Source: Zestosphaera sp.
Lineage (GTDB): Archaea; Thermoproteota; Thermoprotei_A; Sulfolobales; NBVN01
Direction of reading: 5' to 3'
Length of the DNA stretch: 64,000 nucleotides
NCBI GenBank assembly: GCA_038727705.1
Contig: JAVYVJ010000002.1
Location: 488,600 to 552,599 of the forward strand
Shown: in pieces, positions 5,673 through 57,897 of the stretch
Layout of the letters: every line of letters begins with the position of its first letter
How positions within the stretch are numbered: position 1 is the stretch's first letter
Notes under the pieces: generated by a model
The model's input: only the letters and a program-made list of their open reading frames with translations
Database searches by the model: none
Told to the model about the DNA's origin: nothing
Program-made: the position numbers and the translations under genes

Positions 5673-5720
5673 CCTTGCTTTATTAAGGACTGGCTCAGAA
5701 TATTAGTTGTGGTGTGGTAT

Positions 5721-37762: not shown

Positions 37763-37839
37763 GGGCCGGTAGCTCAGCCTGGAAGAGCGCTCGGCTTGCA
37801 ACCGAGAGGCCCCGGGTTCAAATCCCGGCCGGTCCACCA
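37763..37839 (+). tRNA. tRNA-Ala (UGC) with encoded CCA
   Basis: Acceptor GGGCCGG (37763-37769) pairs with CCGGTCC (37829-37835), including the G3-U70 wobble that identifies alanine tRNA. The anticodon arm CTCGG-CTTGCAA-CCGAG gives TGC. The D arm GCTC/GAGC and T arm with GGTTCAAATCC are normal. Discriminator A is 37836 and CCA is 37837-37839. A short TATA-like catttatt lies about 10 nt upstream. It marks the left edge of the conjugation-type region. Confidence 0.95.
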
Positions 37840-37923: not shown

Positions 37924-38067
37924 TTATCCCCCGCCCGCACTGCTTGGGACCTTCCTCCCGCCGGGTAGCTTGGCGTACTCGTAGACGTATAGCTTCCCCT
38001 CAGCATGCTTAACAGGAAAGCCCAACACACCCTCTTCAGAACTGCTTTCTGGGGGACTTATCCCCAC
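37924..38067 (-). CDS. Possible small ORF of 47 residues beside the tRNA-Ala gene
   Basis: It starts at GTG 38067 and ends at TAA 37924. The peptide has an LYVYEYAKLPGGRKV segment with protein-like strand and turn texture. It lies just downstream of the VirB4 gene, with no strong ribosome site. It may be an element gene, or a fragment of an integrase or other gene disrupted at the insertion. I found no motif. Confidence 0.3.
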   Translation of the reverse strand: MGISPPESSSEEGVLGFPVKHAEGKLYVYEYAKLPGGRKVPSSAGGG

Positions 38068-38085
38068 CCACGGCTTAATAGTTGA

Positions 38086-39894
38086 TTAAGTTATTGATGT
38101 GGTGAAGGATTTTAGTTCCTCCTCAGTCGGCAGGACTTGGAGCGTTAGCCTCTTCCTCCCTGCTTTGAGGATCCCTGCACCGGTTGGTGCGTTCACGAGG
38201 AAGTCCGCCTCAGCATCGCTCAGCTTGTAGATCTCCCTCACCGCGTCCCTCCCCTCCAGCTCCTGCCTGAGTATGAGTGACGTAGCGCTCTGCTCCAGGA
38301 CAGTCCTGCCCTGAGGCGTCCTCGCCAAATCCTCAGCCCTCTGACTAACGTACATGAAGACGACGCCGCACTTCCTCCCCCTCCTGGCAATGTTCTCAAA
38401 GAGTGCAACAATGCTCGGTGTCTCCATGAAGAGCCACGCCTCATCAACGAAGAACACGGACTTCTGTGACCTAGTCAACAACCTGTTGTAGGCATACGCA
38501 GCTATGAGTGCTGAGATAAGTATCTTCAGACGCTTAGACCTAACGTTCTTGAGGCCGAAGACTGTGGAGCTGGAGATGTTGGGGGGCTCCCCCCTGTAGA
38601 CGTGAACGTCCGGCTCCGCCAGAGCTCCCTGCAGGTACCTACTCAGTTGCGGGTCCTGCATAGATGTAACTAGCTCCTCAACATCATCGACTCTGTCCGC
38701 CTTAGTTGATAGCTCCCTCCTCAACAGTCCCTGCAACTGCTCCGGCACAACGTAGACCTCCGACAGGACGTCCGCCACCTGTGAGACGTCCAAGTAACCT
38801 AACTGCACCATCTTTATCGGATCCAAGCCCAACTCCCCCCTCTCCCCTATCTCGACGGGTGCAGCGCCGAGGAGTCTGGAGACCTTGGTGTACTCCGACT
38901 CAGGGTCTATGCCTACGTACGGAACGTCCCTACAGAGCTCCCTAAGCCTCTTCAGGAAGACCTTTGCGGTCATCGACTTCCCGCTACCCGTCACCCCGAG
39001 AATCACGAAGTTCAGGTTGGGCTTCGTCCACGGGTTAAGCACGACAGGGCTCCCCGTGCCTGAGACCCCGAGGAACACGCCGCCACCATCAACGAGCTCC
39101 TCGTCAATCATGAAGAACAGGGGCTTGAGCGAGTAGGTGTCCGTGTAAGCCTTCTCCAGACAGAATACATAGCTACACACGCTGAAGTCATACAGCCTTC
39201 TCTGCATCGGCGGTGCCTCTGCCTCCACCCCAAAACCCTTTAGCAGCGTCTTGACCTGCCCCTCAACGCCGTTGAGCTCCCTCAAGTCCCTGGCCAACAG
39301 CGTGAGCATCAGGTATACCTCCAGGAGGTCCGCACCGGATAGGACGCTTCTAGCTAGTTCTTCGAGCATAGCCACCTGCTCCTGAAGCTCCACGGATCCG
39401 CTAGATCCAGATACCTTCCTCTTCCTAGCCCTCTCAACCGTTGAGAGGGCCTTAGACCTCCCAACAACCCTATAGATGAGGACTATCTCCCCAACGTCGT
39501 TGAAGAGACTGTAGAGGAAGCCCTCTGGGAGACGGCTCGGGAACCTGTAGGCTACAAGGACCCTCGCATACATGTTGCTGTCAAGTAGGAGCGTGTAGGG
39601 GTCGACGAGCCTGCTCACGTTGGGTCTAGGCACAGCATCAACTGGTTTGGCGTTGAAGTACGGCACTGACTCTGCTGTAGTGCGGAGATAGAAGTCAACC
39701 ATGATCACGTCCGCTTCATAGCCGTAGTAGGTGAACCTCTGACGCTCCCTCCTCATGAGGAGGACGCCGCTCTTAGTGGACGCCACCAGGGACGTGAAGT
39801 CGTTCAGGAGGAGGTCCCTATCCTCAGCCGAGGAGATCGTGAATGAACTTCCCTCAAGCTTAAACCACCTCACAGGAGCCTTAGCCTTCAACAC
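38086..39894 (-). CDS. virB4-like: VirB4-like conjugation ATPase
   Basis: The 602-residue protein has an N-terminal alpha-beta region of about 280 residues and a C-terminal AAA-type ATPase. Walker A is GVTGSGKS (Lys306) and Walker B is VFFVDEAWLF (Asp484-Glu485); DEAWLF is typical of VirB4/TrbE/TraC. An arginine-containing YVSQRAEDLA segment follows. VirB4 proteins energise pilus assembly and DNA transfer in type IV secretion. CedB in crenarchaea is a relative. It starts with GTG after a ggtggggtg ribosome site. It is divergent from the prepilin operon and shares a 52-nt promoter spacer with it. Confidence 0.88.
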   Translation of the reverse strand: MLKAKAPVRWFKLEGSSFTISSAEDRDLLLNDFTSLVASTKSGVLLMRRERQRFTYYGYEADVIMVDFYLRTTAESVPYFNAKPVDAVPRPNVSRLVDPYTLLLDSNMYARVLVAYRFPSRLPEGFLYSLFNDVGEIVLIYRVVGRSKALSTVERARKRKVSGSSGSVELQEQVAMLEELARSVLSGADLLEVYLMLTLLARDLRELNGVEGQVKTLLKGFGVEAEAPPMQRRLYDFSVCSYVFCLEKAYTDTYSLKPLFFMIDEELVDGGGVFLGVSGTGSPVVLNPWTKPNLNFVILGVTGSGKSMTAKVFLKRLRELCRDVPYVGIDPESEYTKVSRLLGAAPVEIGERGELGLDPIKMVQLGYLDVSQVADVLSEVYVVPEQLQGLLRRELSTKADRVDDVEELVTSMQDPQLSRYLQGALAEPDVHVYRGEPPNISSSTVFGLKNVRSKRLKILISALIAAYAYNRLLTRSQKSVFFVDEAWLFMETPSIVALFENIARRGRKCGVVFMYVSQRAEDLARTPQGRTVLEQSATSLILRQELEGRDAVREIYKLSDAEADFLVNAPTGAGILKAGRKRLTLQVLPTEEELKSFTTSIT

Positions 39895-39946: not shown

Positions 39947-40321
39947 GTGAGCAAGCTGAACTACCGGAGGAGAGGGCTCTCAAACGTGGCTGCCGGGATA
40001 GTTCTGGCGGTGGTGACTGCATGCGCCCTGACCATTATCGTGCAGTGGGCCAGAACGCAGGTCTCCAGGATGCCCTCAAGGGTTGCTGAGGGTGTAGCGG
40101 TCGCGCCACACCGCATAGGCAGCGACCTCATCATAGTGAACTACGGCTTCAGAACCTACACGGCGAGGCTCATCAATGAAGATGGCGGCATATGCAGCAG
40201 CCCGCATGCAGTCCAGCTATTGCCGAGGAGCGCTGCGATCGTAACAACATCATGCAATGTTGAGTGGGTTGAGATTAGCGGCAACATCCTGAGGGTGGTG
40301 AGCGTTGGGAAGAAAGCATAG
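39947..40321 (+). CDS. Archaeal type IV prepilin-like protein
   Basis: This 124-residue protein begins with a basic tract and RRRG followed by LSNVAAGIVLAVVTACAL. This is a class III signal cut after Gly10 by the archaeal prepilin peptidase PibD. The hydrophobic stalk is followed by a short beta-rich head with two Cys (near residues 83 and 104). It is the first gene of a co-oriented operon. The next gene overlaps its end by 17 nt. It likely forms a minor or major pilus subunit of the transfer system. Confidence 0.8.
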   Translation: MSKLNYRRRGLSNVAAGIVLAVVTACALTIIVQWARTQVSRMPSRVAEGVAVAPHRIGSDLIIVNYGFRTYTARLINEDGGICSSPHAVQLLPRSAAIVTTSCNVEWVEISGNILRVVSVGKKA

Positions 40322-41723
40322 GAAGGGTCAGGCAGAGGTCATCGCAGCACTGAGCATAGCGATGCTGACGGCGCTATCCGTGTATGTTGCGGCGTACGTC
40401 ATCCAGCTGCAGAGAAGGCAGGTGGCGGAGGCCCAGGAGTACAGTCAACTCATCGTCGAGCGAATGAATGAGTTCGTTGCTTTCAGGCTCGCGGACGAAA
40501 GCGTTGAGGCCTCCTCCAACACGGACTCCTGGCTTGCGTACAGGGCGGTGGTGGACGGGGACGGTAGCGTGCTGTGGAAGAACTTCACGGCCGTGAGCGT
40601 CTCAGGTGACTGGCTACCCGTCCTCAAGGCCACCTGGACTGAGGGCGGGGACGTGATTGCGGGTAAGGTCAGGACATGCGATGCGAGGCTAGTGGTAGTG
40701 ACCGGCATGGGGAGGCTGTTCTCGTGGTGTCCTCAGGCACTGCAGGCACTGCTCAACCCCATCGACCCCACACAGGGGAGCGGGTTGGGGATATACGTAA
40801 CGGGTGGCACGTACTATGCGTTCAAACGCATAGGAAACTACAACTACAGCGTGAGGTACGTTTACAGGGGCGGGGCCTTCACAAACGAGAGCGTGGTGAC
40901 GTACGTGTGGGACGCAAACATGTCCTACAACATATTTAAAGCTGACTATGACGGCTACGTAGTCGTCAAGCCCGTGAAGACCGCCCTCAGCACCCTACAG
41001 ACCGCTCACTTCTTCAGCGTGCCTGACCCATCGATCCCATACGCAACGCCATCATGGTCGTCTGTTATGAGGGCGGACCTAGCAAAGAAGGCGGAGATCA
41101 ACCGCACCATCGTTTACGATGGGTCTAGGGTTAGCGTGACCGCCTGCTGGCGGCTGGACCCAGTAGTCGCCGCGGCATCCCGAAGCACCGCCTCAAGCAC
41201 TGGGGGAGGCTCCACCTACTCCGTCTACTTTACCATATACAACATGCCGTCCGAGTGGTCTCTGCCCAACATTATCGCCGCCCTCACCGGGTCCTACATC
41301 TGGGTTCAAACACCGTCCTGGCTTGAATACGTTAAGGCCGGCTACGCCTACTATTCACACACCTGTCAGGATCAGTACTGCGGGGCCGTGAGCATCACTG
41401 CCTACTCAATCTCATCAATCACATGCGGGGGGAGCAACCCATGCTATTCGGGGGGCAGGGTCTACGCATACTGGAGGACAGGCACTACCCCCTACACATT
41501 CAGTTACACCGCCTACCTCTCCTCAGTAATGCAGGTGGGGACCGAGTACAGATTCTCCATAAACCCAACGCTTAACCCCACATACTACAGGGTCACGCAG
41601 ACCGTGAGAACAGCCTCACCGACCACCATCAACTCCCTGCCAGCAAATGCAATAGCTACGGACAGCGGGGCCACGATATACGTCGTCAACGTCATACCGC
41701 AGATGCTGCAGGCGATTGGGTGA
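40305..41723 (+). CDS. Large type IV pilin-like or adhesin protein
   Basis: The 472-residue protein opens with MGRKHRKG, then QAEVIAALSIAMLTALSVYVAAYV. This is another class III signal, with cleavage after Gly8. The long head is Ser/Thr/Tyr-rich with six or more Cys (for example CQDQYC and CGGSNPC). It looks extracellular and partly disulfide-bonded. Its TTG start overlaps the previous gene. The size suggests a tip adhesin or a minor pilin rather than the bulk subunit. No known domain was recognised. Confidence 0.7.
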   Translation: MGRKHRKGQAEVIAALSIAMLTALSVYVAAYVIQLQRRQVAEAQEYSQLIVERMNEFVAFRLADESVEASSNTDSWLAYRAVVDGDGSVLWKNFTAVSVSGDWLPVLKATWTEGGDVIAGKVRTCDARLVVVTGMGRLFSWCPQALQALLNPIDPTQGSGLGIYVTGGTYYAFKRIGNYNYSVRYVYRGGAFTNESVVTYVWDANMSYNIFKADYDGYVVVKPVKTALSTLQTAHFFSVPDPSIPYATPSWSSVMRADLAKKAEINRTIVYDGSRVSVTACWRLDPVVAAASRSTASSTGGGSTYSVYFTIYNMPSEWSLPNIIAALTGSYIWVQTPSWLEYVKAGYAYYSHTCQDQYCGAVSITAYSISSITCGGSNPCYSGGRVYAYWRTGTTPYTFSYTAYLSSVMQVGTEYRFSINPTLNPTYYRVTQTVRTASPTTINSLPANAIATDSGATIYVVNVIPQMLQAIG

Positions 41724-41785
41724 GCTAGGGGTGGGTTGGGGTGGGCTTTGAGTCCAGGTACCACCGGTTCTCATGCACTAGGTCT

Positions 41786-42103
41786 ATGTCTTTCACGAGC
41801 GAGAGGCTCTACGGCCCGCTCCAGGTGAAGCACGCAGCCTACCTCGCACTGTCGGTCCTCGCTGGGTGGAGGGGCCTCACCTTGGGGAGCGGGGTCCTCC
41901 TGGCCTCCGCAGCCATCACCGCATTCCTAGGGCTGGTGTCGGCAGTCGTCGGCGTTAAGACTATGAGCTTCGAGGGTAAGGTGGTGACGACCCTCATATC
42001 CATGTTCGACACACTACCCTCCCGAAGGGGTAAGCGGGTGAAGCGCAAACCTAAGCCGCAGTCCAGGCCTGGCAAGCTTAGGGGTAGGCGTGGGGTGGCT
42101 TGA
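41786..42103 (+). CDS. VirB3/PrgI-like small membrane protein
   Basis: This protein of about 105 residues has a short N-terminal strand (SERLYGPLQVKHAAYL), two adjacent membrane helices (about 15-28 and 33-55) and a basic C-terminal tail. The xxGPLxxxxxxYL start before a helix pair is the pattern of PrgI/VirB3 proteins that dock VirB4 at the membrane. The frame runs back to 41741, but ATG 41786 gives the family-like N-terminus. It overlaps the next gene by 14 nt. The assignment is by pattern only. Confidence 0.5.
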   Translation: MSFTSERLYGPLQVKHAAYLALSVLAGWRGLTLGSGVLLASAAITAFLGLVSAVVGVKTMSFEGKVVTTLISMFDTLPSRRGKRVKRKPKPQSRPGKLRGRRGVA

Positions 42104-44120
42104 GGTGAGGCTAACCCTACCCTACACCGTCAAGCAATCAGTGGACTTCCCGTACAGGGTCAAGAGCGTCTCGCGCTACGACCTGGAGTCCATAGTCTTG
42201 GACGTTGCGCTCCAGCCCAGAATAACTGTGGTCGGCCGCATCTCAGGCAAGATTATCGGGAGGGCTGAGGGGGTAGTGGTTGGTAGTAAGGTCGTTGAGA
42301 ACGCTGTAGGCTTCCCCCATAAGGAGTACGGGCTGGCAGTCAAGAAGAGCGTCAAGGGTTTTGAGGTTCACCTAGCTGAAGATTCCGTGACCTGTGAGGA
42401 CGTTAGGACTGCCGGCCTTGACGGGGCTTTCCTTGTTGCGTGTTACAGAGATAAGCACGCAAACATATACCTAGCGTCCTTCACAGACATTGTCAGGCAC
42501 GAGGACGTCTACAGGGCTAGGCCCGTTAAGGCATCGGTGGGCTTCCAGAGCGGTTCAGTGGTTTTCGAGGACGGTAGAAGTGTGGTCCTGTATCAGGATG
42601 GGTTTGCTGAGGTGGGCATGCCGATAGAGGCTATAGCCTTCCTCGAGGACACATTCTACGGCTCATCGGCTGGTTGGGTAGTGTCTGTAGACGTTCACTC
42701 GATGGACATCAAGCCCGCCGTCAAATCAGGCTCGATTAAGTTCTCAGGTTTCTTGGAGGGCCTGCCGGCATTCCATGACGGTAGCTCCCTCTACGTTTTG
42801 GACGGGGGCTCCCTAGTTAGGAGAGGCAGCGCCGCAGGTGAGGTGTCGGCGTGGAAGGACACGGCGGTTGCCGACTCGGGGGAGAGGCTCATCATCACGG
42901 ACCCCTACGGGAGGGTCCTGGCGGACATCCCGAAGGACGTAATGGTTAAGTGTGAGGCCACTAAGCACGGAGTCATGTGCTTTAGGGAGAACATGTTGGG
43001 CATAGTGGATCACGGCAGAAGCTTCGTGGAGGTCGACCCAATCGATTCTGAGGACCACGCGGTTGCGGTCTCAGCAGACACTACACTATACGTTGTATAC
43101 AAGGATGGCAGGTATAGGGTGAGCAACCGAAGAGCCGTAATCACTGATAAGAACTCAAGCGTCCTCAGGGAACACGTGTTTGATCTGGTGGTGAATCATC
43201 TCCTAGGCGATGAGTATGTAGTGGTTAGGTCGCCTGCGAGGAGAGTGGAGGTGAACGTCGGTGATGCTAAGCTCGTTACGTCCTCAGCAATGCATAGGTG
43301 CGGGGGCTACGGGGTCCTGGAGCTCAGGGGTGTGGGGGTTGTGAAGCCCACCAGAGTGGCTCTAGAGGTTGCGGGCAAGCCCCTGACTAGCGAGGTCTGC
43401 CTCGATAGGGCGGAGCCCGAGGAGGTGTTGGTGGAGGCTGTGGACACGCTCACGGGGGATAGGGTTGAAGCCGCCCGAGTGAGGCCTGCGGTGGAGCATG
43501 TGGGGGGACCTCAGGCGTCCTTCACAGTCAAGCACTACTCAAGCAAGTCGGTGGTGAGGGTCTTCAGCGATGGCATGATAGTTGATGCGAGGCTCTGCTG
43601 TAGTAGGGTCTGCAGGGACGTCCAGGCGGGCGGCAACACGATCTCCGTGGAGGTGAGGGACTGCAGGCTTCCTGCGTGGGTGGAGGTGACCGTTGAGAAG
43701 CGGGGTTTCATCTTTCACGAGAGGCTGAACGTAGAGATCCCCAACCTAGTGGATGCCGTGTTGGGCGCTGCAAGCACTACGGAGTACCGGGTGGGCGGGT
43801 TCCACACCACCATACCCATCCCCGACTACCCGGACATCCCGCCGATACATGGGGTGGAGATGCACGTCCTCCCGGGGAAGCTTGCCGTCACGCTCAACTC
43901 CAGAGTCATCGGGAGGGGTGTGGCTGTGGCGGAGGGCAGGCTGAAGCCCCTCGTAATCAAGAACGGGCTGAACACCTTCGAGGTGCCGTTCAGCGAGAAG
44001 GTCTTCCTGGTGATCGATGCTGGGAGGAGGTGGCTCTACACCATGGAGCTAACGACTGAGGCCCTGATTAAGGTGGCTGACAGACACGCTCGGTTGCTGA
44101 AGCACGTTTTGAGGGCCTAA
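42090..44120 (+). CDS. Large beta-rich protein of unknown function
   Basis: The 676-residue protein is rich in Val, Gly and Asp. It has many short repeated strand-turn units (for example DGSSLYVLDGGSLVRRG, DTTLYVVYKDGRYRVS), suggesting a beta-propeller N-terminal half. A Cys-rich segment with CCSRVCRD lies near 505-515. The C-terminal third resembles stacked immunoglobulin-like strands (GLNTFEVPFSEKVFLVID). No signal peptide is visible. Its GTG start lies inside the VirB3-like gene and its stop is 2 nt before the transglutaminase-like gene. A structural role at the transfer channel is inference. Confidence 0.65.
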   Translation: MGWLEVRLTLPYTVKQSVDFPYRVKSVSRYDLESIVLDVALQPRITVVGRISGKIIGRAEGVVVGSKVVENAVGFPHKEYGLAVKKSVKGFEVHLAEDSVTCEDVRTAGLDGAFLVACYRDKHANIYLASFTDIVRHEDVYRARPVKASVGFQSGSVVFEDGRSVVLYQDGFAEVGMPIEAIAFLEDTFYGSSAGWVVSVDVHSMDIKPAVKSGSIKFSGFLEGLPAFHDGSSLYVLDGGSLVRRGSAAGEVSAWKDTAVADSGERLIITDPYGRVLADIPKDVMVKCEATKHGVMCFRENMLGIVDHGRSFVEVDPIDSEDHAVAVSADTTLYVVYKDGRYRVSNRRAVITDKNSSVLREHVFDLVVNHLLGDEYVVVRSPARRVEVNVGDAKLVTSSAMHRCGGYGVLELRGVGVVKPTRVALEVAGKPLTSEVCLDRAEPEEVLVEAVDTLTGDRVEAARVRPAVEHVGGPQASFTVKHYSSKSVVRVFSDGMIVDARLCCSRVCRDVQAGGNTISVEVRDCRLPAWVEVTVEKRGFIFHERLNVEIPNLVDAVLGAASTTEYRVGGFHTTIPIPDYPDIPPIHGVEMHVLPGKLAVTLNSRVIGRGVAVAEGRLKPLVIKNGLNTFEVPFSEKVFLVIDAGRRWLYTMELTTEALIKVADRHARLLKHVLRA

Positions 44121-44122
44121 CC

Positions 44123-45952
44123 GTGGATGCCCTGAAGGCCTTGGCCTACATAGTTGCCCTCATCGTGATCCTTGCCGTCAGCCACAGGATCGCACCCAAC
44201 TCCACACCACCTCGGCAGGGAATACCTCACTCAATCCAGTATGAAGGACTTCGTTACATGCCATCCAGACCCACGTGCCCGACGACAAACACGACAGATA
44301 CCGCTGTCTACCTGGTGGATTTCCTCAAAGTGGTTGGCGGGGTAGACTATGAGTATGTAGCTAATCCCAACCTATCCAACATCAACGTGACCGGCTACCT
44401 CATTGAGTACGCCAAACTAGGCCTGTCGTTGTCCTCGATCATGGATAACGGCACTACCTACCGCCTAACCATGCTACCGATTGATGAGGGGGACCGCCTC
44501 GGCCTACTAAACAAATCCATATACATGTGCTTCCCACCTAAGGCTAGGCACCCCCTCTTCACCATTAGGAACCTAACTGATTCGAGCGTGGTCGTCGATA
44601 ACTCCACGTACACAGTCATCAATGCAGCTACACCTCCCCCATACGCGGAGCTCTCTAATCTAGCTATTTCCAGAACGGTTCTGGAGGCAGTTCTTGTTGA
44701 GGGCTATGGTGAGGCGCTTACTGCATCGCTGTCCCACCTCGGTAGCTACACCTACGGCCCCTACTGCTGGGAGTGGATGTGGGGCGACCACACATACGAG
44801 TACTGCTACAGCCACGCATACAATCGCTACAGAGCGTCATGGAGCTACATCATCGGCTACGCAGTGAACGGCTCGGTAGCGTATAGCAGGACGGTGGGGA
44901 GCGCGGCGGAGCTCGAGGGCGGCGGATCAGGCGCAAGGGTCATCTCCAGCGACTTCGAGGGGCACTACATGGGCTTCGGACCCCTGACAAAGGTGGAGGT
45001 CACCGCTCACAACTACGTTGACCGCAGTGGGGGATGCAGCACCGGGGGTAACCGTACAGAGTGCCACTACCACTACGAGCACGGCGTAAGCTCTATCGCT
45101 GTGAATGTATACACGAGAGGCCTCAGAATAGACACTAAAGTGAACGCCTCAATAGGCCTTGAGGCTGTGCCGGTGACAGGTGTGGAACCTGTCAACATCT
45201 CAACCCAGAAATACGCCACCCTAGAGCCGAGGGGCAGCGTTAGCCTGCCCGTGAGCTTCAGCGACTCAGTCGACGTGTGCAACTACATTGAGGTCGAAGG
45301 CGATGTGTTGGTGAGGTGTCTCGGCAGAGCCGCTAGGAACTCGTTCGCCGGGTACGTGGATCTGGCGTACAGGGTGAGGGAGTTTGAATGGCCGTGGGGA
45401 TCGGTGGTGGATGCACCCTATGAAATCACTGTAGAGAAGAAACTCTATCCACCTCCATATGCTCCAGACACAGACTTGAACAAGCTGTTCTACGGCTACC
45501 TCCAAGAGGCTGTGCTGAAGTACGTGGCCGGCGTTGTGGACGGCTATGCCTCTCAAACAGGCTACAGAAGCTTCGAGGCATGGGCCCTAGCCACACAGAT
45601 ACCGATACAGATGGAGAAGTGTGGAAACCGCACGTCCTACATGCCGCTACTGGAGGCTCTGCAGAATGGATGCGGATCGAACGAAGAGCGTGCGGAGATT
45701 CTGTCCGGGATGCTGAAGCATCTAGGTATAGAGCACGAGGTCAAGGACGTTACAGTGAAGGCGTCAAGAGGTATGGGGATTGCGGAGGTTCCGGGTATAG
45801 CTGTCTACGGGCACATGGGCAGTTACCCGGGGTTCTACAACCTCACCGGACTAGGGTGCGCTTCAGAGGCTGAGGAAGGCTACATGATCGCGTACGACAC
45901 AGCGCAGAACAACATCTTCTCAGATCTAAGGAAGATCATTATCAACAGCTAA
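44123..45952 (+). CDS. Membrane-anchored transglutaminase-like protein
   Basis: This 609-residue protein has an N-terminal membrane helix (about 5-20) and a long extracellular region rich in Asn-x-Ser/Thr. The C-terminal domain of about 130 residues shows a transglutaminase-like triad. Cys517 is in NGCGSNEER, His564 in YGHMG and Asp592 in YDTAQ, in the order Cys-His-Asp of the fold. Such domains are cysteine proteases or amide-transfer enzymes. Its place among pilus and conjugation genes suggests processing or crosslinking of surface subunits. The middle region also has a Trp/Tyr-rich patch (WEWMWGDHTYEYC). The triad was found by eye. Confidence 0.65.
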   Translation: MDALKALAYIVALIVILAVSHRIAPNSTPPRQGIPHSIQYEGLRYMPSRPTCPTTNTTDTAVYLVDFLKVVGGVDYEYVANPNLSNINVTGYLIEYAKLGLSLSSIMDNGTTYRLTMLPIDEGDRLGLLNKSIYMCFPPKARHPLFTIRNLTDSSVVVDNSTYTVINAATPPPYAELSNLAISRTVLEAVLVEGYGEALTASLSHLGSYTYGPYCWEWMWGDHTYEYCYSHAYNRYRASWSYIIGYAVNGSVAYSRTVGSAAELEGGGSGARVISSDFEGHYMGFGPLTKVEVTAHNYVDRSGGCSTGGNRTECHYHYEHGVSSIAVNVYTRGLRIDTKVNASIGLEAVPVTGVEPVNISTQKYATLEPRGSVSLPVSFSDSVDVCNYIEVEGDVLVRCLGRAARNSFAGYVDLAYRVREFEWPWGSVVDAPYEITVEKKLYPPPYAPDTDLNKLFYGYLQEAVLKYVAGVVDGYASQTGYRSFEAWALATQIPIQMEKCGNRTSYMPLLEALQNGCGSNEERAEILSGMLKHLGIEHEVKDVTVKASRGMGIAEVPGIAVYGHMGSYPGFYNLTGLGCASEAEEGYMIAYDTAQNNIFSDLRKIIINS

Positions 45953-46170
45953 CTTAAGGTGTTCTGCATGAGCAGTTTAAGCAGCATCTCCGCCGCCTCA
46001 TCACTCCCGTAGAGCTCGACCACACACTCACGGAGCCTCTCAGGATTCTCCAGAAGGAGAGAAGCGGAGTCCCTCCCGAACCTGCTCAGACAGTAGAGGT
46101 CCAGGATCTCGTGGAGTCCGGGTGCGGCGACAGATAGGAAGTCCCTTATCATCCTCCTAGCGTTCCTCAT
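45949..46170 (-). CDS. Small helical protein, unknown function
   Basis: The 73-residue protein is almost all helix, with a hydrophobic heptad-like pattern and a C-terminal DEAAEMLLKLLMQ helix. ATG 46168-46170 was chosen because the upstream frame runs through the pilin gene on the same strand. It lies just downstream of the VirB2-like pilin gene and may be co-transcribed. Its 3' end overlaps the end of the convergent transglutaminase-like gene by 4 nt. It could be a pilin chaperone or an assembly factor, but nothing in the sequence proves it. Confidence 0.55.
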   Translation of the reverse strand: MRNARRMIRDFLSVAAPGLHEILDLYCLSRFGRDSASLLLENPERLRECVVELYGSDEAAEMLLKLLMQNTLS

Positions 46171-46220: not shown

Positions 46221-46571
46221 TCAGCCGCCGACTAGCGCCGGTATGATTACCGTGAGCGCGGCCAGGACCATCGCACCTACTATGGCTCCACCGAGGAACT
46301 TCTTCCCCCTCTCCGAATCCCCCATAGCTATGTTGAGCCCCCCGTAGATCCCCGCACCGAACACGGCTACCCACGCGCCCCAGTAGAGCCAGTTAATCAG
46401 CCTCTGAATCATTGCGCCGATGCCTGGCGGTGCCTCAGGCTGTATGCTCACGGGAGGTGTGGTCTGAGTCTCACCGTACGACACTGCTTGCGTCAGGAGC
46501 AGGGTCGCCACCAGCCCCGCCACGGAGGCTCCACGTAGCCAATCCCTCGCAACCACGTTCAGCATCCCCAC
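46221..46571 (-). CDS. virB2-like: VirB2/TrbC-like conjugative pilin
   Basis: The 116-residue protein has a basic N-terminus and a hydrophobic signal segment (about 13-32). A likely cleavage site is near 33, and a Pro-rich stretch follows. Two helices (about 60-82 and 92-113) are separated by the basic loop GDSERGKK. This hairpin of two hydrophobic helices with a charged loop is the VirB2/TraA conjugative pilin layout. It is also seen in the archaeal CedA1 and TedC pilins that assemble with lipid. It is divergent from the TadA-type ATPase gene, with a TATA-like tttaaaa in the spacer. Confidence 0.78.
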   Translation of the reverse strand: MGMLNVVARDWLRGASVAGLVATLLLTQAVSYGETQTTPPVSIQPEAPPGIGAMIQRLINWLYWGAWVAVFGAGIYGGLNIAMGDSERGKKFLGGAIVGAMVLAALTVIIPALVGG

Positions 46572-46617: not shown

Positions 46618-48012
46618 GTGAGCCTTAGAGTCCTCCTAGAGTCCTTAAGGGATCGGCTGAGGGGGTCGGGGAAGACTGAAGGGCGTGTGAGGCTTGAGCT
46701 CGGGGCCCCTAGCGGGAGGGAACTCCTCAGCTACGTGGTGGGGGCCTGCAGGGTCTCCCTAATCACTGCGGGTGAGGAGATAGTGTACGTCGCGGTCCCG
46801 CGCATTTCTCAAGACCTCTTCAGGTCCGTGGGGCGGGGGCTCGACGTCGTGACCGCCCTGATGGGGAGGGGCAACGACCTAGGTGATGTGCTCGTTGAGG
46901 TCCTCGGCATAGGTAGGGAGAGGGTTGCGGAAGCCATCTACGTTCTGAAGAGCGTTGTGGGATACAGGCAGCTCCAGGTCTTGCTGGACGACCCCTACAT
47001 CCTCGACATCTCGGTGGTGGGGCCAGGCCCTGTGTGGGTCAGGCATTCCTGGGTGGAGCAGAACTCCCACGAGCAGGACTTCATCAGGACGAACATAGTG
47101 GTGAACACCCTAGACGACGTTGTAGAGCTACAGCAGGTCATAGCCACTAAGTGCGGGACCTACATATCGACCTCCAACCCGATCGTGGACACGCAGCTCC
47201 CACCAAGGGACGGCGCCCACAGAGTTCACCTAGTAGCACACACGATATCCACCAGCAGGAGACCGGAGATCGTTATAAGGAAGAAACTGAGCACGCCGCC
47301 ACCCGTGAGCAGGCTCGTTGAGGAGGGGGTTCTCCCGGATGCGGTGGCGAAGCTGTTTAGGGCCTTGATACGTTCGAGGGGTTCCATGATTATAGCTGGT
47401 CCGCCTGGCTCAGGCAAAACAACGTTGCTCCGATCCATCCTCCACAGCTTCGTCCCCCCGGGCTGGAAGGTAGCCATCATCGAGGACACGGGTGAGGTAG
47501 ACCCGCCGCCAGGGTCTTCATGGGTACGGTACACGACTTTCGAGCTTGGAGCGGTTAAGGTGGACCTCTTCGACCTGGCGAAAGCGGCTCTGAGGGCTTC
47601 AGCCACCAAACTCGTCGTGGTTGGCGAGACTAGGGGTGAGGAAGCGAAGGTCTTGGTCCAAGCCATGCTCACGGGGTTGGGGGGCCTCACAACGTTCCAC
47701 GGCGCCTCCCCGGAGGAGGTCATGACTAGATTCACGGGCCCGCCCATCAACCTATCGCCCCTGCAGGTAGGTATGTTCAACTTCATCGCAGTCGTCGGCT
47801 ACGGGGAGAGGCCTAGGAGGCAACTGAAGAGGGTCGTGGAGCTCCTCCACCTCGATGGAGACAAGGTAGGGTTCAACGTTGTCTGGGACAGGGGGAGGGA
47901 CGGGATGGGCGTAGACTTCAGTACGCTCGTGCCGAGGCTTGGGAGGTGGGGTGAGCTGAGGGCGAGATCCGAGGCACCTGTAGAGGCGATCCTAAGTGAA
48001 AGGATCGAGTAG
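46618..48012 (+). CDS. tadA-like: TadA/VirB11-type secretion ATPase
   Basis: The 464-residue ATPase has an N-terminal domain with a QVLLDDPYILDISV-type segment and CP-type region. Walker A is GPPGSGKTT (Lys267), the Asp box is EDTGE, Walker B is VVVGETRGEE, and the His box is LTTFHGAS. This is the hexameric assembly motor of archaeal type IV pili and also of VirB11. The GTG start is shared by the divergent promoter with the VirB2-like pilin. The next gene overlaps by 17 nt. Confidence 0.92.
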   Translation: MSLRVLLESLRDRLRGSGKTEGRVRLELGAPSGRELLSYVVGACRVSLITAGEEIVYVAVPRISQDLFRSVGRGLDVVTALMGRGNDLGDVLVEVLGIGRERVAEAIYVLKSVVGYRQLQVLLDDPYILDISVVGPGPVWVRHSWVEQNSHEQDFIRTNIVVNTLDDVVELQQVIATKCGTYISTSNPIVDTQLPPRDGAHRVHLVAHTISTSRRPEIVIRKKLSTPPPVSRLVEEGVLPDAVAKLFRALIRSRGSMIIAGPPGSGKTTLLRSILHSFVPPGWKVAIIEDTGEVDPPPGSSWVRYTTFELGAVKVDLFDLAKAALRASATKLVVVGETRGEEAKVLVQAMLTGLGGLTTFHGASPEEVMTRFTGPPINLSPLQVGMFNFIAVVGYGERPRRQLKRVVELLHLDGDKVGFNVVWDRGRDGMGVDFSTLVPRLGRWGELRARSEAPVEAILSERIE

Positions 48013-49459
48013 CATTGTGGAGAAGTACAGGAGGATGGTCGCCCTCATAACGGGCGACATTAAGAGGTACAGAAGGGCTTCGAAGGAAGTCAAAACAGCT
48101 GCCTACTTAACGCCCCTAGCCGTGACGCTGCCGCTCGTGCTCCACTACCTAGAGTTCCTGCAGGACCCCGCACTCCTGGCGATCGTTGGTTTATCACTAG
48201 GTCTGGCGGCGTGGGTTAGAGTGATAGATACGGCAACGTCCCTGCAGGGCTTCAGGAGGAAGCTGGATGAGGAGCTGCCGTTCTTCACGTTAACAGCTAC
48301 GGCTGTGTCCAGGACCGGTCTAGAACCTGTTGAGTTACTTAGGTTCCTAACGAGCTCTGAGGTCTTCAGTGCGTTTAGGGAGCTCGGGAGGAGGTTCTGG
48401 GGGCTCTCGGAGGCATTCGGATCCTCGGAGGGCCTGGCTATGCTTGCAAGGCTTGCTAGCGGGAGGGTTAGGCCCTTCCTAACGGAATATACGTTGGCCC
48501 TAGCTTCGGGCACGGCCCTACAGCACCTGAGGGACAGGGCTATGGACTTCGTGAAGACCGTTGCGGTTGAGGTGGAGAGGACTTTAGGCAGCAGGATGGT
48601 CGCGGCGATGGTGATCTCGATGTTCTTCTCCGTCATGCCTGTGGTCCTAATATCAATGACCGCCCTCTTCACCACATCCCTCGAGGACGGGGCGCCGGGG
48701 GCCCCGGCATTCATTCAGGTGCTGGCGCCGGCGATCGTCGGCGCGTCTGCGCTACTGGCCGTCGTTCTGCCGGGTTACCCGCTGGCGGTGCAGGTCGTAA
48801 TGGAGGGGAAGGTCCTCACGGCCTGCAGGGCTGCGTTCGCATCGGGGACAGGGCTCTTAGCACTGCCGCCGATAATGCTCTCCCTAGGACTTATGGACCT
48901 CAGCGGCTTCAGGGAGTTGACGATTTACTGCTCGCTGGTTGCGGCCGCCTTAGGCGCGGTGCCCTTCACCCACACACTCAAGGCGTTGATGACTAGGATC
49001 GACGACGTCGTTGAGTCGATGGCTCAGCACGTTAGAGTCTATAGGTCGATGCACCTCTACAGGAACGAGAGGCTGGAGGGGCTGGGGAGGAGGTCCGTGA
49101 GGCCTTGGCTGGCGGGCTACCTCAGGGAGTCGACGGAGTTCTTCAGGCTGTTGGGGGACGTGGATCCCTCAGTATTCGATCTCTTCGTCATGTTTGTGAT
49201 GGAGGTGCGGAGGACAATGGGGAGGGCGATGGCGCATGTGGCGTTCATGGCGGCCGTCGTTCTGTTAGCCCCCGTGCTCTCGACAGCCACCATGGGCCTC
49301 GGGGCAGGGCTGGGCGTTGCTGCGGAAACCCTTCTGACTGGCTACGCATCAGTTCTGGGGTTCGGCTACATCGCAGGGAAGATAGCTCTAGGTCGGAACG
49401 TATCGACACTATTACCCGGCCTCGCAGCACTGCTCTACGCACTGACCCTTACCGCTTGA
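47996..49459 (+). CDS. tadC-like: TadC/GspF-type pilus platform protein
   Basis: The 487-residue protein has about nine membrane helices and two cytosolic T2SSF-like domains (about 85-195 and 320-400), the duplicated layout of archaeal FlaJ/PilC/TadC proteins. It forms the membrane base on which the TadA-type ATPase acts. Its GTG lies inside the ATPase gene, which implies coupled translation. A prepilin gene follows after 44 nt with its own TATA-like tttttaaac. Confidence 0.9.
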   Translation: MKGSSSIVEKYRRMVALITGDIKRYRRASKEVKTAAYLTPLAVTLPLVLHYLEFLQDPALLAIVGLSLGLAAWVRVIDTATSLQGFRRKLDEELPFFTLTATAVSRTGLEPVELLRFLTSSEVFSAFRELGRRFWGLSEAFGSSEGLAMLARLASGRVRPFLTEYTLALASGTALQHLRDRAMDFVKTVAVEVERTLGSRMVAAMVISMFFSVMPVVLISMTALFTTSLEDGAPGAPAFIQVLAPAIVGASALLAVVLPGYPLAVQVVMEGKVLTACRAAFASGTGLLALPPIMLSLGLMDLSGFRELTIYCSLVAAALGAVPFTHTLKALMTRIDDVVESMAQHVRVYRSMHLYRNERLEGLGRRSVRPWLAGYLRESTEFFRLLGDVDPSVFDLFVMFVMEVRRTMGRAMAHVAFMAAVVLLAPVLSTATMGLGAGLGVAAETLLTGYASVLGFGYIAGKIALGRNVSTLLPGLAALLYALTLTA

Positions 49460-49503: not shown

Positions 49504-49983
49504 GTGATCCGTAAGGACAGGAAGTGGTTGAGGAGGGGTCTGAGCGAAGCAGTGGTCATCATGATCGTGATCATGATTGCCGTGACGCTGGGGTTCGGCC
49601 TCAAGGCGTGGTACGACACGCAGATGAGGAAGCTGCCCGCAACAGACATCGCCACCGCCGAGTGGAGCGCAACGTACGGCACGAACAGGTGGATCCTCTC
49701 CGTGAACGTCGACAACAACCTGGAGAGAAGCATTGTCGTGCAGTCCATCAGAGTTACCCTAGCGAACGGCACCGTCTACACGTTGCCAGGAGCTGCCGGG
49801 GTGACGGCAACGCCGACGCCCGGCTCATCAGCGACTGTAACCCTGAAGGGAAGCCTGAGCTTCGTAGTCGTCATCCCCGTATCCTCCCCCACGCCATCGA
49901 TAGCCACCGTAGAGGTTCAGGTGCAGGACTCAACGACCGGGGCCGCTCAGTGGGTGAAGGCGGTCGGGGGTTCTGCAGTATAA
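49504..49983 (+). CDS. Archaeal type IV prepilin
   Basis: The 159-residue protein starts MIRKDRKWLRRG, then LSEAVVIMIVIMIAVTLGFGL, a class III signal with cleavage after Gly12. The beta-rich head (about 45-159) has the Val/Thr-rich strands of adhesive pilins and no Cys. It is likely the main subunit of the type IV pilus built by the adjacent TadA/TadC pair. The GTG start has gaggtgg upstream. This is the third class III signal protein in the element. Confidence 0.85.
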   Translation: MIRKDRKWLRRGLSEAVVIMIVIMIAVTLGFGLKAWYDTQMRKLPATDIATAEWSATYGTNRWILSVNVDNNLERSIVVQSIRVTLANGTVYTLPGAAGVTATPTPGSSATVTLKGSLSFVVVIPVSSPTPSIATVEVQVQDSTTGAAQWVKAVGGSAV

Positions 49984-50478: not shown

Positions 50479-51165
50479 CTAGATCGTTCTCCCCTCACCC
50501 CACAATATGCTGAAGTAGTTCTTGACCTGTCGCGCAATGGTGTCCGACTCTATGAGTGCTGTCACTTCGTGATTGTAGCTCAGAGCGCTCTCCGTCCAAT
50601 TATGGCTCCCCACAAATACGTACTGATCATCAACCACGACCACCTTTGCGTGGGTGGTCACGGAGCTGCTCTTATCAAGCCTCACGGGCACCCCGTTACT
50701 CTTCAGGTAATCCATCGTTTCCCTGTAGCTGGTGTAGGTCACGTCATCGACGAGCACCCTCACATCAAGGCCTCTCCTGCAGGCGTCAACAACTCTGGAT
50801 AACAGTATGTTCACTGGGTCACCGGGCTCGTTGGGGTCGTACTTCATAGCATACATTATAACGTAGATACTCTTGTTGGCCTTACTCAAGACGTTTAGCA
50901 GGGTGTGGTAGTAATCCTTATCCGTGAGCAGGTCCACGTTTGCGACCGCCGTCACCGTGATTGGTTTCGTGACCGTGTAGGTTGCCGTGTAAGTTATTGT
51001 GGGAGGGACTACAGGGGCCGCTGTAACGGCCTTCGTGGTGGTAATGGTTGTAGGTAGCGTTGCTGTAACTGTGCGGTAAACAGGAGGTCTTGAAATGCTA
51101 ATAGCGTAACCCACTAACGCACCAGCAATTAACATGAGGAAAGCTACGGCAAGGATCTTATTCAT
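50479..51165 (-). CDS. Membrane-anchored phospholipase D-like nuclease
   Basis: The 228-residue protein has an N-terminal membrane helix (3-22) and a Thr/Val/Pro-rich linker. A single HKD domain of the Nuc type follows: HAKVVVVDDQ (HxKxxxxD) then GSHNWT. PLD-family nucleases with one HKD motif act as dimers on DNA or RNA, and some are phospholipases. The anchor places the domain outside the cell or facing the surface. In this setting it may degrade one strand of incoming DNA or attack recipient envelopes. Both are inference. Confidence 0.82.
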   Translation of the reverse strand: MNKILAVAFLMLIAGALVGYAISISRPPVYRTVTATLPTTITTTKAVTAAPVVPPTITYTATYTVTKPITVTAVANVDLLTDKDYYHTLLNVLSKANKSIYVIMYAMKYDPNEPGDPVNILLSRVVDACRRGLDVRVLVDDVTYTSYRETMDYLKSNGVPVRLDKSSSVTTHAKVVVVDDQYVFVGSHNWTESALSYNHEVTALIESDTIARQVKNYFSILWGEGRTI

Positions 51166-51270: not shown

Positions 51271-53865
51271 ATGCTCTACGAGGTAGTGCCTAGAGTCCCC
51301 CAGCCCCCCTTCAGTCCGGGGGTCCTGGGCCCGGGCTCCACGTTGTGCGTCGTGAACGTGGGGAGGGGTTTAAGGGTCTTCATCGAGACACCCACATCTT
51401 CAGACACTTTGAAGAACTTCTTCGGCGTCTCCAAGGCATCGCATGACAGCGTACTGCAATTGTTTAACAACGAAGTGTACGTGTCTGAGGCAAGGCTCAA
51501 GAACTCCTTCGACTTCTGGTTCACAGACGTGGTTATCACCGATTTAGCCGGCCTGGTCAACTCCCTCGAAGGTGTTGGGGGCGTGTGCGTCGGTGTTTCC
51601 CGTGACCCCGGCTTAAGGATGGTTTTCGCCAATGAAGTCTCCAAGCTGATGAGCAAATCCGTTAAATACGATAATCAATCGTATGGGGAGAGGGCTAAGC
51701 TTCTCCGAAGACGCGTAAACAAGGTAGTCCTCGGTAAAATCCTAGTCCTCGCACCAGACAGGAAGGCTGGAAAGTATGTTGAGAAATTGGTGGAGGGCTC
51801 ATGTAGTGCGAGGTTGAGTTGGGATGGGAGGAAGGTCAAGAGCGCCGCAGACCTCGGAAAGCTCCTGCAGCCGCCGAGGATGGGCTTCTTTGAGAGGTTG
51901 TTGGGTGGAAGAAACAGGATCGTCTTCACGGAGGGCACACTGCATGAGATGGTTAAGCTCCCGAACCCGAGCCTCCATAAGATAGGCTTCGTTAGAGGCT
52001 CGCCCCTGCCGTCCGTGATCTCCGAGCGTGTCGGGGGGAGGGCGTTCAGGATAGGGGTTCTTGAAGACGGGAGGGAGTTTAAGCTAAGCATGGAGGATAT
52101 GTTTAGACACGCATACGTGATCGGGCAGACAGGCAGCGGCAAGACGTCGTTCATGAAGTTACTTGTCCATAGATTGAGAGAGCTCAAGGACGCTTCAATA
52201 GTGGTGGTGGACCCGCATGGGGATATGGCGAGGGAGTTAGCGGAGGAAATCCCGGAAGCACTCTACCTACACTCGATCAGAAGCCCCTTCGGCCTCAACC
52301 CGCTAGACCTCCCGAAGACCGAGGATAGAGACCACGCCGTAACGATAGCCATCGACATCCTCTTGGAGATGTTCAAGGAGATACTTAAGTTAATGGAGAC
52401 GGCCGTAAACGTGAAGTATTTGCTGCAGGTTATACTTAGGGCGCTATACTCTAAATCGGATTCCCCAACAATGGCTGATCTCTACAACACTATCCTGGCA
52501 TTATACAAAGGCGAACTTGATTTAGACATCAATGACCCTGAGTGGCAGGCACAGCTAGAGGCGTTGCAGAACATGCAGGACCAGACGTTCATCTCGGCTC
52601 TAAGCAGGCTTGAGGCATATGCGCATGATAAGCTACTGCTGAAGCTGACCTCTAGGACGACCGTGGACATGGATAGGCTGAAGTCGCCTGGGTCAATCAC
52701 CATATTTTCAACGCCTAAAGCAGATTTGGGGGAAAACCTTGCAAGGCTAATCGCGTCCACGGTAGTTATGAAGCTGTGGTTCGAGGCGCTCGCCAGGGCT
52801 AGGCTGGGTGAGCGGAGAACCCCCGTATTCTTAGTTATCGATGAATTCCAATTCGTAGCCGATCTGCCGATCATTGATACTATCCTATCGGAGGCTCGTA
52901 AATATGGACTACACCTGATTATGGCACACCAGCACACAGGTCAGATCCCTCAAAACTTGATGCAGTCCATTCTAACCAACTGCGCCGTTAAAGTAAGCTT
53001 CATGGTGGGTGGAAGCGATATTAAGCACCTCTCCATGATGGACGCTTCCTTCGCTGATGCGTTAGCCGAGGCCTTGACCGGGCTGACAGTAGGCAGAGCC
53101 GTGGTTAAAGTGACGGCTAGACCAGGGGAGCAACAACCGCCGCCCGTGATCGTGCAGATGGACTACATACCTCACCAGGCCGTTAGGGAGAACATCTACA
53201 CCGGAGCCTTCGACCCCGGTGTGGTGCGGGGGAGTGACTTGAAGGGCGTGTTGAACCCAGTCCTGAAGTACGTGGATCCCGTGAAGCCTTTAGAGGTGCT
53301 CACCCTCTACGAGGTCTATAAGGCCGGGAGGATTGCATTAACCGACCTAGCCGTGAGGCTCGGCGCCCCTAGGAAGGGCCTTGAGGACGCCGTAGCCCAG
53401 CTCTCGTCCCTTGGATACATCAACGTGGAGAGGGAGGGTAACAGGAAGGTGTTGACATACGTTAAGGGCTTATTCAGAGGGCTTAGGAACGCAACGCCGT
53501 CGGAGGATGGCTTCAGGATCGCTAGAAAAGCTGCGCTGACGTACTTCGGCAAAGGCTTCGTGGTCGTGCCTGCGAAGCAAGACTCCAACCTGAGTGCCAG
53601 GCCGGACATGGTTGCCGTACCAGTAGACAGGTCTACTTGGAGGCCGCTCTACAGCGGGACCGTAGCCGTTGAGGTGGAGTCATGCAATGAGATCAAGACG
53701 CATCCGGAGCACGTTGTCCACAACTGGGTCAAGGAATCAGCTAGAGATTTCCTCGAGGTACATACGTGGACTAGCGAGGAATGCTTCAGCAGGCTGCAGA
53801 AGCTCTACGAACAGCACCCTGAGGTCCACGGCAATGTGAAGATACTCTCGGCAAGGCTGACGTAG
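51271..53865 (+). CDS. HerA/VirD4-like DNA translocase (coupling protein)
   Basis: The 864-residue protein has an N-terminal alpha-beta region of about 270 residues. The FtsK/HerA-type ATPase follows: Walker A GQTGSGKT (Lys291), Walker B VFLVIDEF (Asp524-Glu525), and HQHTGQIPQNL. A C-terminal winged-helix-like domain (about 675-740, LTLYEVYKAGRIALTDLAVRLG) precedes an endonuclease-like beta segment. TraG/VirD4 and HerA proteins drive DNA through the envelope. It begins at ATG 51271 and ends in a strong hairpin region. A dedicated relaxase was not found, so DNA processing may use another protein. Confidence 0.85.
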   Translation: MLYEVVPRVPQPPFSPGVLGPGSTLCVVNVGRGLRVFIETPTSSDTLKNFFGVSKASHDSVLQLFNNEVYVSEARLKNSFDFWFTDVVITDLAGLVNSLEGVGGVCVGVSRDPGLRMVFANEVSKLMSKSVKYDNQSYGERAKLLRRRVNKVVLGKILVLAPDRKAGKYVEKLVEGSCSARLSWDGRKVKSAADLGKLLQPPRMGFFERLLGGRNRIVFTEGTLHEMVKLPNPSLHKIGFVRGSPLPSVISERVGGRAFRIGVLEDGREFKLSMEDMFRHAYVIGQTGSGKTSFMKLLVHRLRELKDASIVVVDPHGDMARELAEEIPEALYLHSIRSPFGLNPLDLPKTEDRDHAVTIAIDILLEMFKEILKLMETAVNVKYLLQVILRALYSKSDSPTMADLYNTILALYKGELDLDINDPEWQAQLEALQNMQDQTFISALSRLEAYAHDKLLLKLTSRTTVDMDRLKSPGSITIFSTPKADLGENLARLIASTVVMKLWFEALARARLGERRTPVFLVIDEFQFVADLPIIDTILSEARKYGLHLIMAHQHTGQIPQNLMQSILTNCAVKVSFMVGGSDIKHLSMMDASFADALAEALTGLTVGRAVVKVTARPGEQQPPPVIVQMDYIPHQAVRENIYTGAFDPGVVRGSDLKGVLNPVLKYVDPVKPLEVLTLYEVYKAGRIALTDLAVRLGAPRKGLEDAVAQLSSLGYINVEREGNRKVLTYVKGLFRGLRNATPSEDGFRIARKAALTYFGKGFVVVPAKQDSNLSARPDMVAVPVDRSTWRPLYSGTVAVEVESCNEIKTHPEHVVHNWVKESARDFLEVHTWTSEECFSRLQKLYEQHPEVHGNVKILSARLT

Positions 53866-54119: not shown

Positions 54120-54278
54120 TATACCTTCCTGGATTACAATTTCTCCTCATAGAATACACCGCCTAACACACCTCATTAAGTAAGTTTATTACGGTCCCAG
54201 AAAACTAGTGCAAGTGCGGTCAATCAATCATTAATCACGTTGCATCTTTTTAAGTTTTGTTTCTTTCTGGGCTGCGTC

Positions 54279-54527
54279 ATGCGTGTTGAGTTGGTTCCAG
54301 GTGAGTACGTTAGGTGGTTCTGGGATTTGGCTTGGGATCTTATGGTTAGGTATGTATCGTTCCTTGGGGGTTTGGGCTACGTTATGGTGGTGCTTGCTGC
54401 AGCTACTGTACTAGTGTTAGTGTATAGGACGCTTCCGGGTCTTAGGAGGGTTGTGGTCGCTGTCTTGGCGGCTGCGTGGATTGCTGCAGCCGTCTCATTA
54501 ATTCTGCTGTTGATTGGAGGTGGTTAG
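54279..54527 (+). CDS. Small two-helix membrane protein upstream of the VirB6-like gene
   Basis: This protein of about 82 residues has two hydrophobic helices (about 30-50 and 56-79) and an acidic, aromatic N-terminus. The ATG at 54279 follows a TATA-like ctttttaag (54246-54254) by about 30 nt. It ends one base before the next start, so the pair is translationally coupled. Two short helices beside a VirB6-like gene resemble the small Ced/VirB accessory proteins (CedA2 or VirB3). I cannot say which. Confidence 0.6.
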   Translation: MRVELVPGEYVRWFWDLAWDLMVRYVSFLGGLGYVMVVLAAATVLVLVYRTLPGLRRVVVAVLAAAWIAAAVSLILLLIGGG

Positions 54528-54528
54528 C

Positions 54529-57889: not shown

Positions 57890-57897
57890 GTGGGAGC

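Follow-up and report, generated by a model that had tools for sequence, protein, structure and literature searches.

A short gene at positions 46221–46571 of a 64,000-nucleotide stretch of Zestosphaera sp. DNA (the window, i.e. the whole stretch that was analysed) raises the question whether a hot-spring archaeon, presumably hyperthermophilic (GTDB order Sulfolobales), encodes a mating pilus on its own chromosome. The original prediction described the product as a VirB2-like conjugative pilin. This description is backed by a type IV secretion system (T4SS) gene context, reciprocal matches to plasmid proteins, sub-threshold T4SS_pilin and TrbC matches in relatives, and a predicted hairpin. We regard it as highly probable that the gene encodes a VirB2-like mating pilin of a chromosomal conjugation-type T4SS, and that the cluster around it stems from an integrative conjugative element. 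What the sequence shows directly is homology, the surrounding genes, integration scars and, by prediction, a hairpin; polymerisation, lipid binding, DNA transfer and its direction, and a division of labour between filaments we infer by analogy.

The hairpin protein and its relatives

The following features were assigned to the gene and its product:

46221–46571, minus strand: VirB2-like pilin with GTG start, 116 aa (orthologs, plasmid profile matches, hairpin model)
46470–46571, minus strand: N-terminal hydrophobic helix, residues 1–34, possible signal segment (absent in several orthologs)
46227–46421, minus strand: helical hairpin predicted by AlphaFold, with helix 1 at residues 51–82 (46421–46326), a turn at residues 83–85 and helix 2 at residues 86–115 (46316–46227)

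The reading frame runs on the minus strand from 46571 to 46221 over 116 codons, and the plus strand of the same interval is interrupted by stops. No strand had been named beforehand. The ORF is borne out by the open minus-strand frame together with its orthologs, which each of the five genomes of the genus has and which extend to further families within the order (E 3e-48 to 2e-19). Of 147 genomes from the GTDB order Sulfolobales, 24 contained the family in a profile search, and the named relatives come from MAGs labelled “uncultured Sulfolobales archaeon”, “Desulfurococcaceae archaeon” and “Fervidicoccus sp.”. All seven members of an alignment share a P..PPG lead, W61, W64, W67, E87, G89, K90, K91, G99 and A100, with invariant W..W..W, E-G-K-K and GxxGA-type patterns. 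A reversed-sequence control with a broader profile of the pilin family gave 0 matches among 3,116 ORFs. The pilin ORF is thus confirmed as real and as conserved beyond chance. One match (L008) was dropped as a relative, being a chance similarity in a frame inside an unrelated 699-aa protein. On the 3′ side of the pilin gene, a small protein (45949–46170, minus strand) gave a NitrOD5-like match below cut-off (E 0.0012).

The protein itself matched no Pfam family, PF04956 (TrbC/VirB2) and PF18895 (T4SS_pilin) included, and no NCBIfam pilin model; the PF04956 profile found no match in the source genome either, so the predicted recognition by PF04956 did not hold for this protein. Sequence searches of the PDB with the pilin, two profiles and two relatives gave nothing relevant and matched no solved pilin. 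The similarity to CedA1/TedC that had been anticipated likewise found no counterpart among the solved chains of this set, which we assume to contain them. Among the 24 family members, PF18895 matched 12 (best 3.4e-6, below cut-off in the tables examined) and PF04956 matched one (E 2.1e-5, 25.1 bits against a cut-off of 27.9).

Reciprocal profile searches between chromosome and plasmids provide the strongest evidence for a common pilin family. A profile made from the seven chromosomal members only, searched against 952 plasmid ORFs, picked out one small ORF on each of five plasmids (E 1.6e-13 to 3e-10): pNOB8, pKEF9, pHVE14, pHGQ25 and, from Thermococcus, pT33-3. All five are annotated “hypothetical protein”; the pKEF9 product is WP_192963572.1 (CDS 5553-5873 of NC_006422) and that of pT33-3 is WP_285519990.1. 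It additionally matched two CedA-like proteins on pHGQ25, and it gave no pilin match on plasmid pTC. Conversely, a profile made from the five plasmid ORFs only had a single match among the 345 ORFs of the window, namely the pilin gene (E 7.8e-13). In pT33-3 the gene order is pilin, VirB3-like, VirB4. The N-terminus of the CedA-like protein of the window is homologous to the pilin as well (hhalign probability 97.2, E 8.9e-11), and the same relation has been described for CedA and CedA1 (PMC9905601). The CedA-like proteins (54514–56601 in the window, and homologs) seem to bear two successive N-terminal pilin-like hairpins, the second of which (window residues 67–126, GRVEEGGKHL) is pilin-like by eye and weak by profile (probability 18).

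An AlphaFold model built from six sequences places helices at residues 2–34, 51–82 and 86–115, with block pLDDT values of ~80–91 over most of the hairpin. The turn is a tight GDS (83–85) followed by a basic ERGKK stretch; the model thus has basic residues at the turn of a hairpin, as TrbC/VirB2 pilins do. Modelling accordingly returned the helical hairpin that had been foreseen, and both the two helices and the basic loop of the claimed layout stand. The window protein does have the hydrophobic N-terminal segment, a possible signal, but the trait is not conserved. Orthologs in genomes G002 and G051 begin directly before the proline-rich lead, and in G002 an N-terminal segment is impossible because the open frame has only 87 codons. 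Processed and unprocessed pilins may therefore coexist in one family, and both forms are on record when TedC and CedA1 are compared (PMC9905601). No prepilin cleavage motif was found in the protein. A Foldseek search of the PDB with the model gave no significant match, conjugative pili included, and a two-helix hairpin is a weakly discriminating fold; the fold test is therefore compatible with a conjugative pilin rather than proof of one.

Transfer and pilus genes around the candidate pilin

The T4SS and associated genes of the window are the following:

38086–39894, minus strand: VirB4 ATPase of the archaeal conjugative-plasmid type (plasmid identity, NCBIfam, tree)
41741–42103, plus strand: small membrane protein, candidate VirB3/PrgI-like subunit (homologs adjoin VirB4)
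42090–44120, plus strand: large protein associated with the cluster (conserved, among others, in G003, G133 and G041)
51271–53865, plus strand: VirD4/TraG-like coupling ATPase, HerA/FtsK superfamily (PF01935, PF10412, PF02534, PF12696)
54240–54527, plus strand: small hydrophobic protein just 5′ of the CedA-like gene (CedA2-like by size and place only)
54514–56601, plus strand: VirB6/CedA-like membrane protein with an inserted PKD-like domain (profiles; N-terminus homologous to the pilin)

The pilin is encoded together with VirB4, VirB6 and a coupling protein, and the window holds homologs of both pNOB8-type VirB4 and VirD4/TraG. The VirB4 is 37–40% identical to VirB4 of five Sulfolobus plasmids (pNOB8/pKEF9/pHVE14 type), branches beside the Sulfolobus plasmid clade, and scores 97 bits with the NCBIfam VirB4 model versus 25 bits with that of CedB (cut-off 700). 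The VirD4-like profile finds the TraG-like proteins of the plasmids, with E values as low as 2e-244 (pNOB8). A tblastn search of the plasmids with the CedA-like protein found nothing, whereas profiles do find CedA-like homologs there. The small protein at 54240–54527 has no homolog in the loci of the compared relatives. Homologs of the 41741–42103 protein adjoin VirB4 in Desulfurococcaceae-like genomes and also occur in plasmids; PF12666 (PrgI), which we take to be a VirB3-type family, matches two of these relatives (E 0.013 and 0.041) and leaves the window protein unmatched.

Further genes and loci deserve mention in their own right. Inside the conjugation cluster, 50479–51165 (minus strand) encodes a nuclease-like protein of the PLD family whose N-terminus carries a hydrophobic segment, and a protein near the CedA-like gene (57871–59034) shows a weak CAP/SCP-domain match (E 0.026). 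The protein at 59104–59763 (minus strand) has a TFIIB zinc ribbon with no other TFIIB domain match, and G003 has a homolog in the corresponding region (L013); TFIIB homologs have been reported close to T4SS and type IV pilus loci of archaea (PMC6563490, PMC4858521). Genome G028 carries two separate VirB4/CedA-like/pilin loci (L024 and L023), which suggests a cell with two elements of this kind.

A type IV pilus module is interspersed with these genes:

39947–40321, plus strand: prepilin-like protein RRRGLSNVAAGIV... (sequence; homolog in G003 and others)
40305–41723, plus strand: prepilin-like larger surface protein RKGQAEVIAALS... (sequence; homolog in G003)
46618–48012, plus strand: type IV pilus assembly ATPase, T2SSE/FlaI/UpsE-like (PF00437, E 6e-22)
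47996–49459, plus strand: TadC/UpsF-like platform protein (NF046075 UpsF, E 3e-7, sub-cutoff; conserved with T2SSE in the cluster)
49504–49983, plus strand: type IV prepilin with cleavage-site pattern KWLRRGLSEAVVIMIV... (pattern from sequence; homologs adjoin T2SSE in relatives)

A prepilin-building pair had been placed next to the pilin from the outset, and T2SSE (46618–48012) and the TadC/UpsF-like protein (47996–49459) do adjoin it, the pilin and T2SSE genes being divergent and 47 bp apart. The ATPase reaches 162 bits with the NCBIfam archaellum ATPase model (sub-cutoff), and the TadC-like protein 29.8 bits in the UpsF equivalog test (cut-off 400); the predicted pair exists, but by the UpsF model it does not qualify as Ups. 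T2SSE accompanies the pilin in the genus, in the Fervidicoccaceae-like genomes G031, G041 and G075, and in G051, G061 and G133, and most of these also have TadC as far as the ends of their stretches permit. G041 has its pilin, prepilin, T2SSE, TadC and VirD4-like genes in a single co-directional array, and in G032 the pilin adjoins VirB4 and a VirD4-like gene. The conjugative plasmids compared have no T2SSE or TadC module. That one cell may make two different filaments, as originally proposed, is suggested by this gene content.

The CedB model NF041017 identifies no equivalog in the five genomes of the genus, where its best values (E 2.5e-8 to 9e-6) are at background level; the cut-off is 700 bits. 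Most other genomes of the family reach about 1e-21 to 4e-86, the exceptions being incomplete genomes, and CedB occurs in most sister genera. Distributions of VirB4 and of CedB/CedD have been described as complementary (PMC11868833), and the CedB data obtained here agree. As no CedB equivalog was found in the genus, the pilin is best read as part of a pNOB8-like T4SS and not of Ced. Placing the protein beside Ced, as had been done, was wrong in detail: the ATPase is a pNOB8/pKEF9-type VirB4 that falls far under the CedB cut-off.

Compared with pNOB8-like plasmids (pNOB8, pKEF9, pHVE14, pHGQ25), whose transfer region likewise unites VirB4, TraG/VirD4-like, VirB6/CedA-like and VirB3-like proteins with a homolog of the pilin, the window cluster is chromosomal, adds T2SSE, TadC and prepilins, and keeps only an integrase fragment. 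With Ced/Ted (PMC9905601) it shares a small two-helix pilin-type protein, a CedA-like channel, an FtsK/HerA-superfamily ATPase and a location on the host chromosome; in Sulfolobales, Ced works together with Ups, a type IV pilus, and genes for a pilus of this class are found here too. Unlike in Ced/Ted, these genes lie physically inside the cluster, VirB4 takes the place of CedB/CedD, a VirD4-like protein is added, and searches of PDB sequences detect no match to solved CedA1/TedC. Thaumarchaeal integrative-conjugative elements resemble the cluster in VirB4, VirD4, VirB6, VirB3, TadC, a FlaI-type ATPase, pilins and TFIIB homologs, going by their published description, and some of them sit at tRNA genes; a VirB2-like pilin is not named in the available part of their description (PMC6563490). 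Bacterial VirB2/TrbC and the Pfam T4SS_pilin family are alike in size, hairpin and place by VirB3/VirB4 (pT33-3), with sub-cut-off PF18895 and PF04956 matches in relatives, whereas the window protein scores with neither family and belongs to an archaeal membrane lipid context.

Integration scars and competing explanations

Two features at the left of the cluster bear on its descent:

37763–37839, plus strand: tRNA-Ala (TGC), presumed integration target
37927–38085, minus strand: degraded N-terminal remnant of an integrase, between the VirB4 stop and tRNA-Ala

A better copy of the integrase remnant (L123) gave weak matches to PF07935 (E 0.015) and to the integrase family phrog_5127 (E 0.002). 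Two further scars were observed elsewhere in the same genome. At L123:2588-3170 (G000:C1:496500-502000; remnant ~499100-499700) an integrase fragment overlaps tRNA-Ala(GGC) and is joined to a VirB4 remnant. At L122:2425-3011 (G000:C2:304500-310500), beside tRNA-Val, 134 bp of VirB4 at 98.5% identity accompany a piece resembling the pNOB8 integrase. The VirB4 pieces at the two scars are 98.5% and about 80% identical. No direct repeat of the tRNA 3′ end that could serve as attachment site was found downstream. Neither the window nor the contig tail yielded a complete integrase of the plasmid type, and no right border of the presumed element was found.

Identities of SRP54 are 85–86% within the genus and 52–57% outside it, and those of VirB4 are 60–73% within the genus and 49–60% for members of the window clade outside it. 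Monophyly of the genus is rejected for the VirD4-like protein (p-AU 0.0017) and T2SSE (p-AU 0.021) and not rejected in the VirB4 tree (p-AU 0.26). The scars, identities and trees make it most likely that the genes of the T4SS and those of the type IV pilus moved together as an integrative conjugative element. The cluster is thus most likely such an element, now at least partly stranded and possibly domesticated.

These observations also bear on other readings of the gene. It could encode a small T4SS component with a channel or anchoring role: a CedA2-like protein of two helices that partners the VirB6/CedA-like protein, forms no filament and shares descent with the CedA N-terminus. Outside the pilins its nearest relative is the hairpin at the N-terminus of CedA-like proteins, Ced has two-helix membrane partners (PMC9905601), and several orthologs are without the signal segment. 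Still, we consider this reading unlikely in view of the sub-threshold T4SS_pilin and TrbC matches across the family, the presence of one such ORF on each of five conjugative plasmids and the pilin–VirB3–VirB4 order in pT33-3; moreover CedA1, which stands in the same relation to CedA, does build a pilus (PMC9905601). It is similarly improbable that the cluster is a Ced/Ted system proper, i.e. a vertically inherited DNA-import apparatus with the protein as its CedA1/TedC ortholog, albeit the component types are identical, the CedA N-terminus is pilin-like and the complementary distribution of VirB4 and CedB/CedD (PMC11868833) is seen here too. The ATPase scores of 25 bits against a CedB cut-off of 700 and 97 bits with the VirB4 model, the grouping of VirB4 beside Sulfolobus plasmids, the rejection of vertical descent by the VirD4-like and T2SSE trees, and the integrase scars all speak against it.

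Very little credence is given to the notion that the hairpin protein is a minor pilin or tip protein of the adjacent type IV pilus, with T4SS genes as neighbours by chance. The divergent T2SSE gene at 47 bp and the array shared with prepilin and T2SSE in Fervidicoccaceae-like genomes would fit such a role, whereas plasmids pair the homolog with VirB4, VirB6 and VirD4 and have neither T2SSE nor TadC, the pilin has no prepilin cleavage motif, and the G032 pilin lies beside VirB4 and a VirD4-like gene.

Proposed assembly of the pilus and its meaning

As a VirB2-like mating pilin, the protein would reside in the membrane as a helical hairpin, its N-terminus perhaps first being trimmed in the source species. 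VirB4 would extract it from the membrane, and it would polymerise on the VirB6/CedA-like channel into a narrow tube, as Ced/Ups and bacterial T4SSs suggest. The VirD4-like ATPase would feed DNA, transfer and its direction being modelled on the same systems, while the T2SSE/TadC/prepilin system may build a separate filament for cell–cell contact, the part that Ups plays for Ced. The cluster would have entered at a tRNA gene as an integrative conjugative element and then lost its integrase, and its present role may be DNA exchange in a genus without CedB.

Archaeal conjugative plasmids (Sulfolobus, Thermococcus) have been credited, in a recent review and in a plasmid study, only with VirB4/TrbE and VirD4/TraG, plus a conserved membrane protein without assigned role (PMC12857230, PMC9899855); a pilin common to conjugative plasmids and a chromosomal cluster therefore seems new with respect to the openly searchable literature. 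Already known are VirB4-type systems in Fervidicoccales and Desulfurococcus (PMC11868833), the Ced/Ted pilins (PMC9905601) and mixed T4SS/type IV pilus elements in Thaumarchaeota (PMC6563490). We lean towards a wider interpretation, in which the family is the overlooked mating pilin of pNOB8, pKEF9, pHVE14, pHGQ25 and pT33-3, with VirB6- and VirB3-like partners, so that the T4SS used in archaeal conjugation would be close to minimal (VirB2-B3-B4-B6-D4); Ced would, in some lineages, have given way to a copy that derives from a plasmid and has a type IV pilus built in.

The main yield is that archaeal conjugative plasmids gain a pilin candidate. With its gene named on pKEF9, pNOB8 and pT33-3, the archaeal mating pilus becomes directly testable in laboratory systems. 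If the interpretation is true, the chromosomal form, with its type IV pilus module, its scars and no CedB, would represent a conjugation machine midway between a mobile element and a host organ of DNA exchange.
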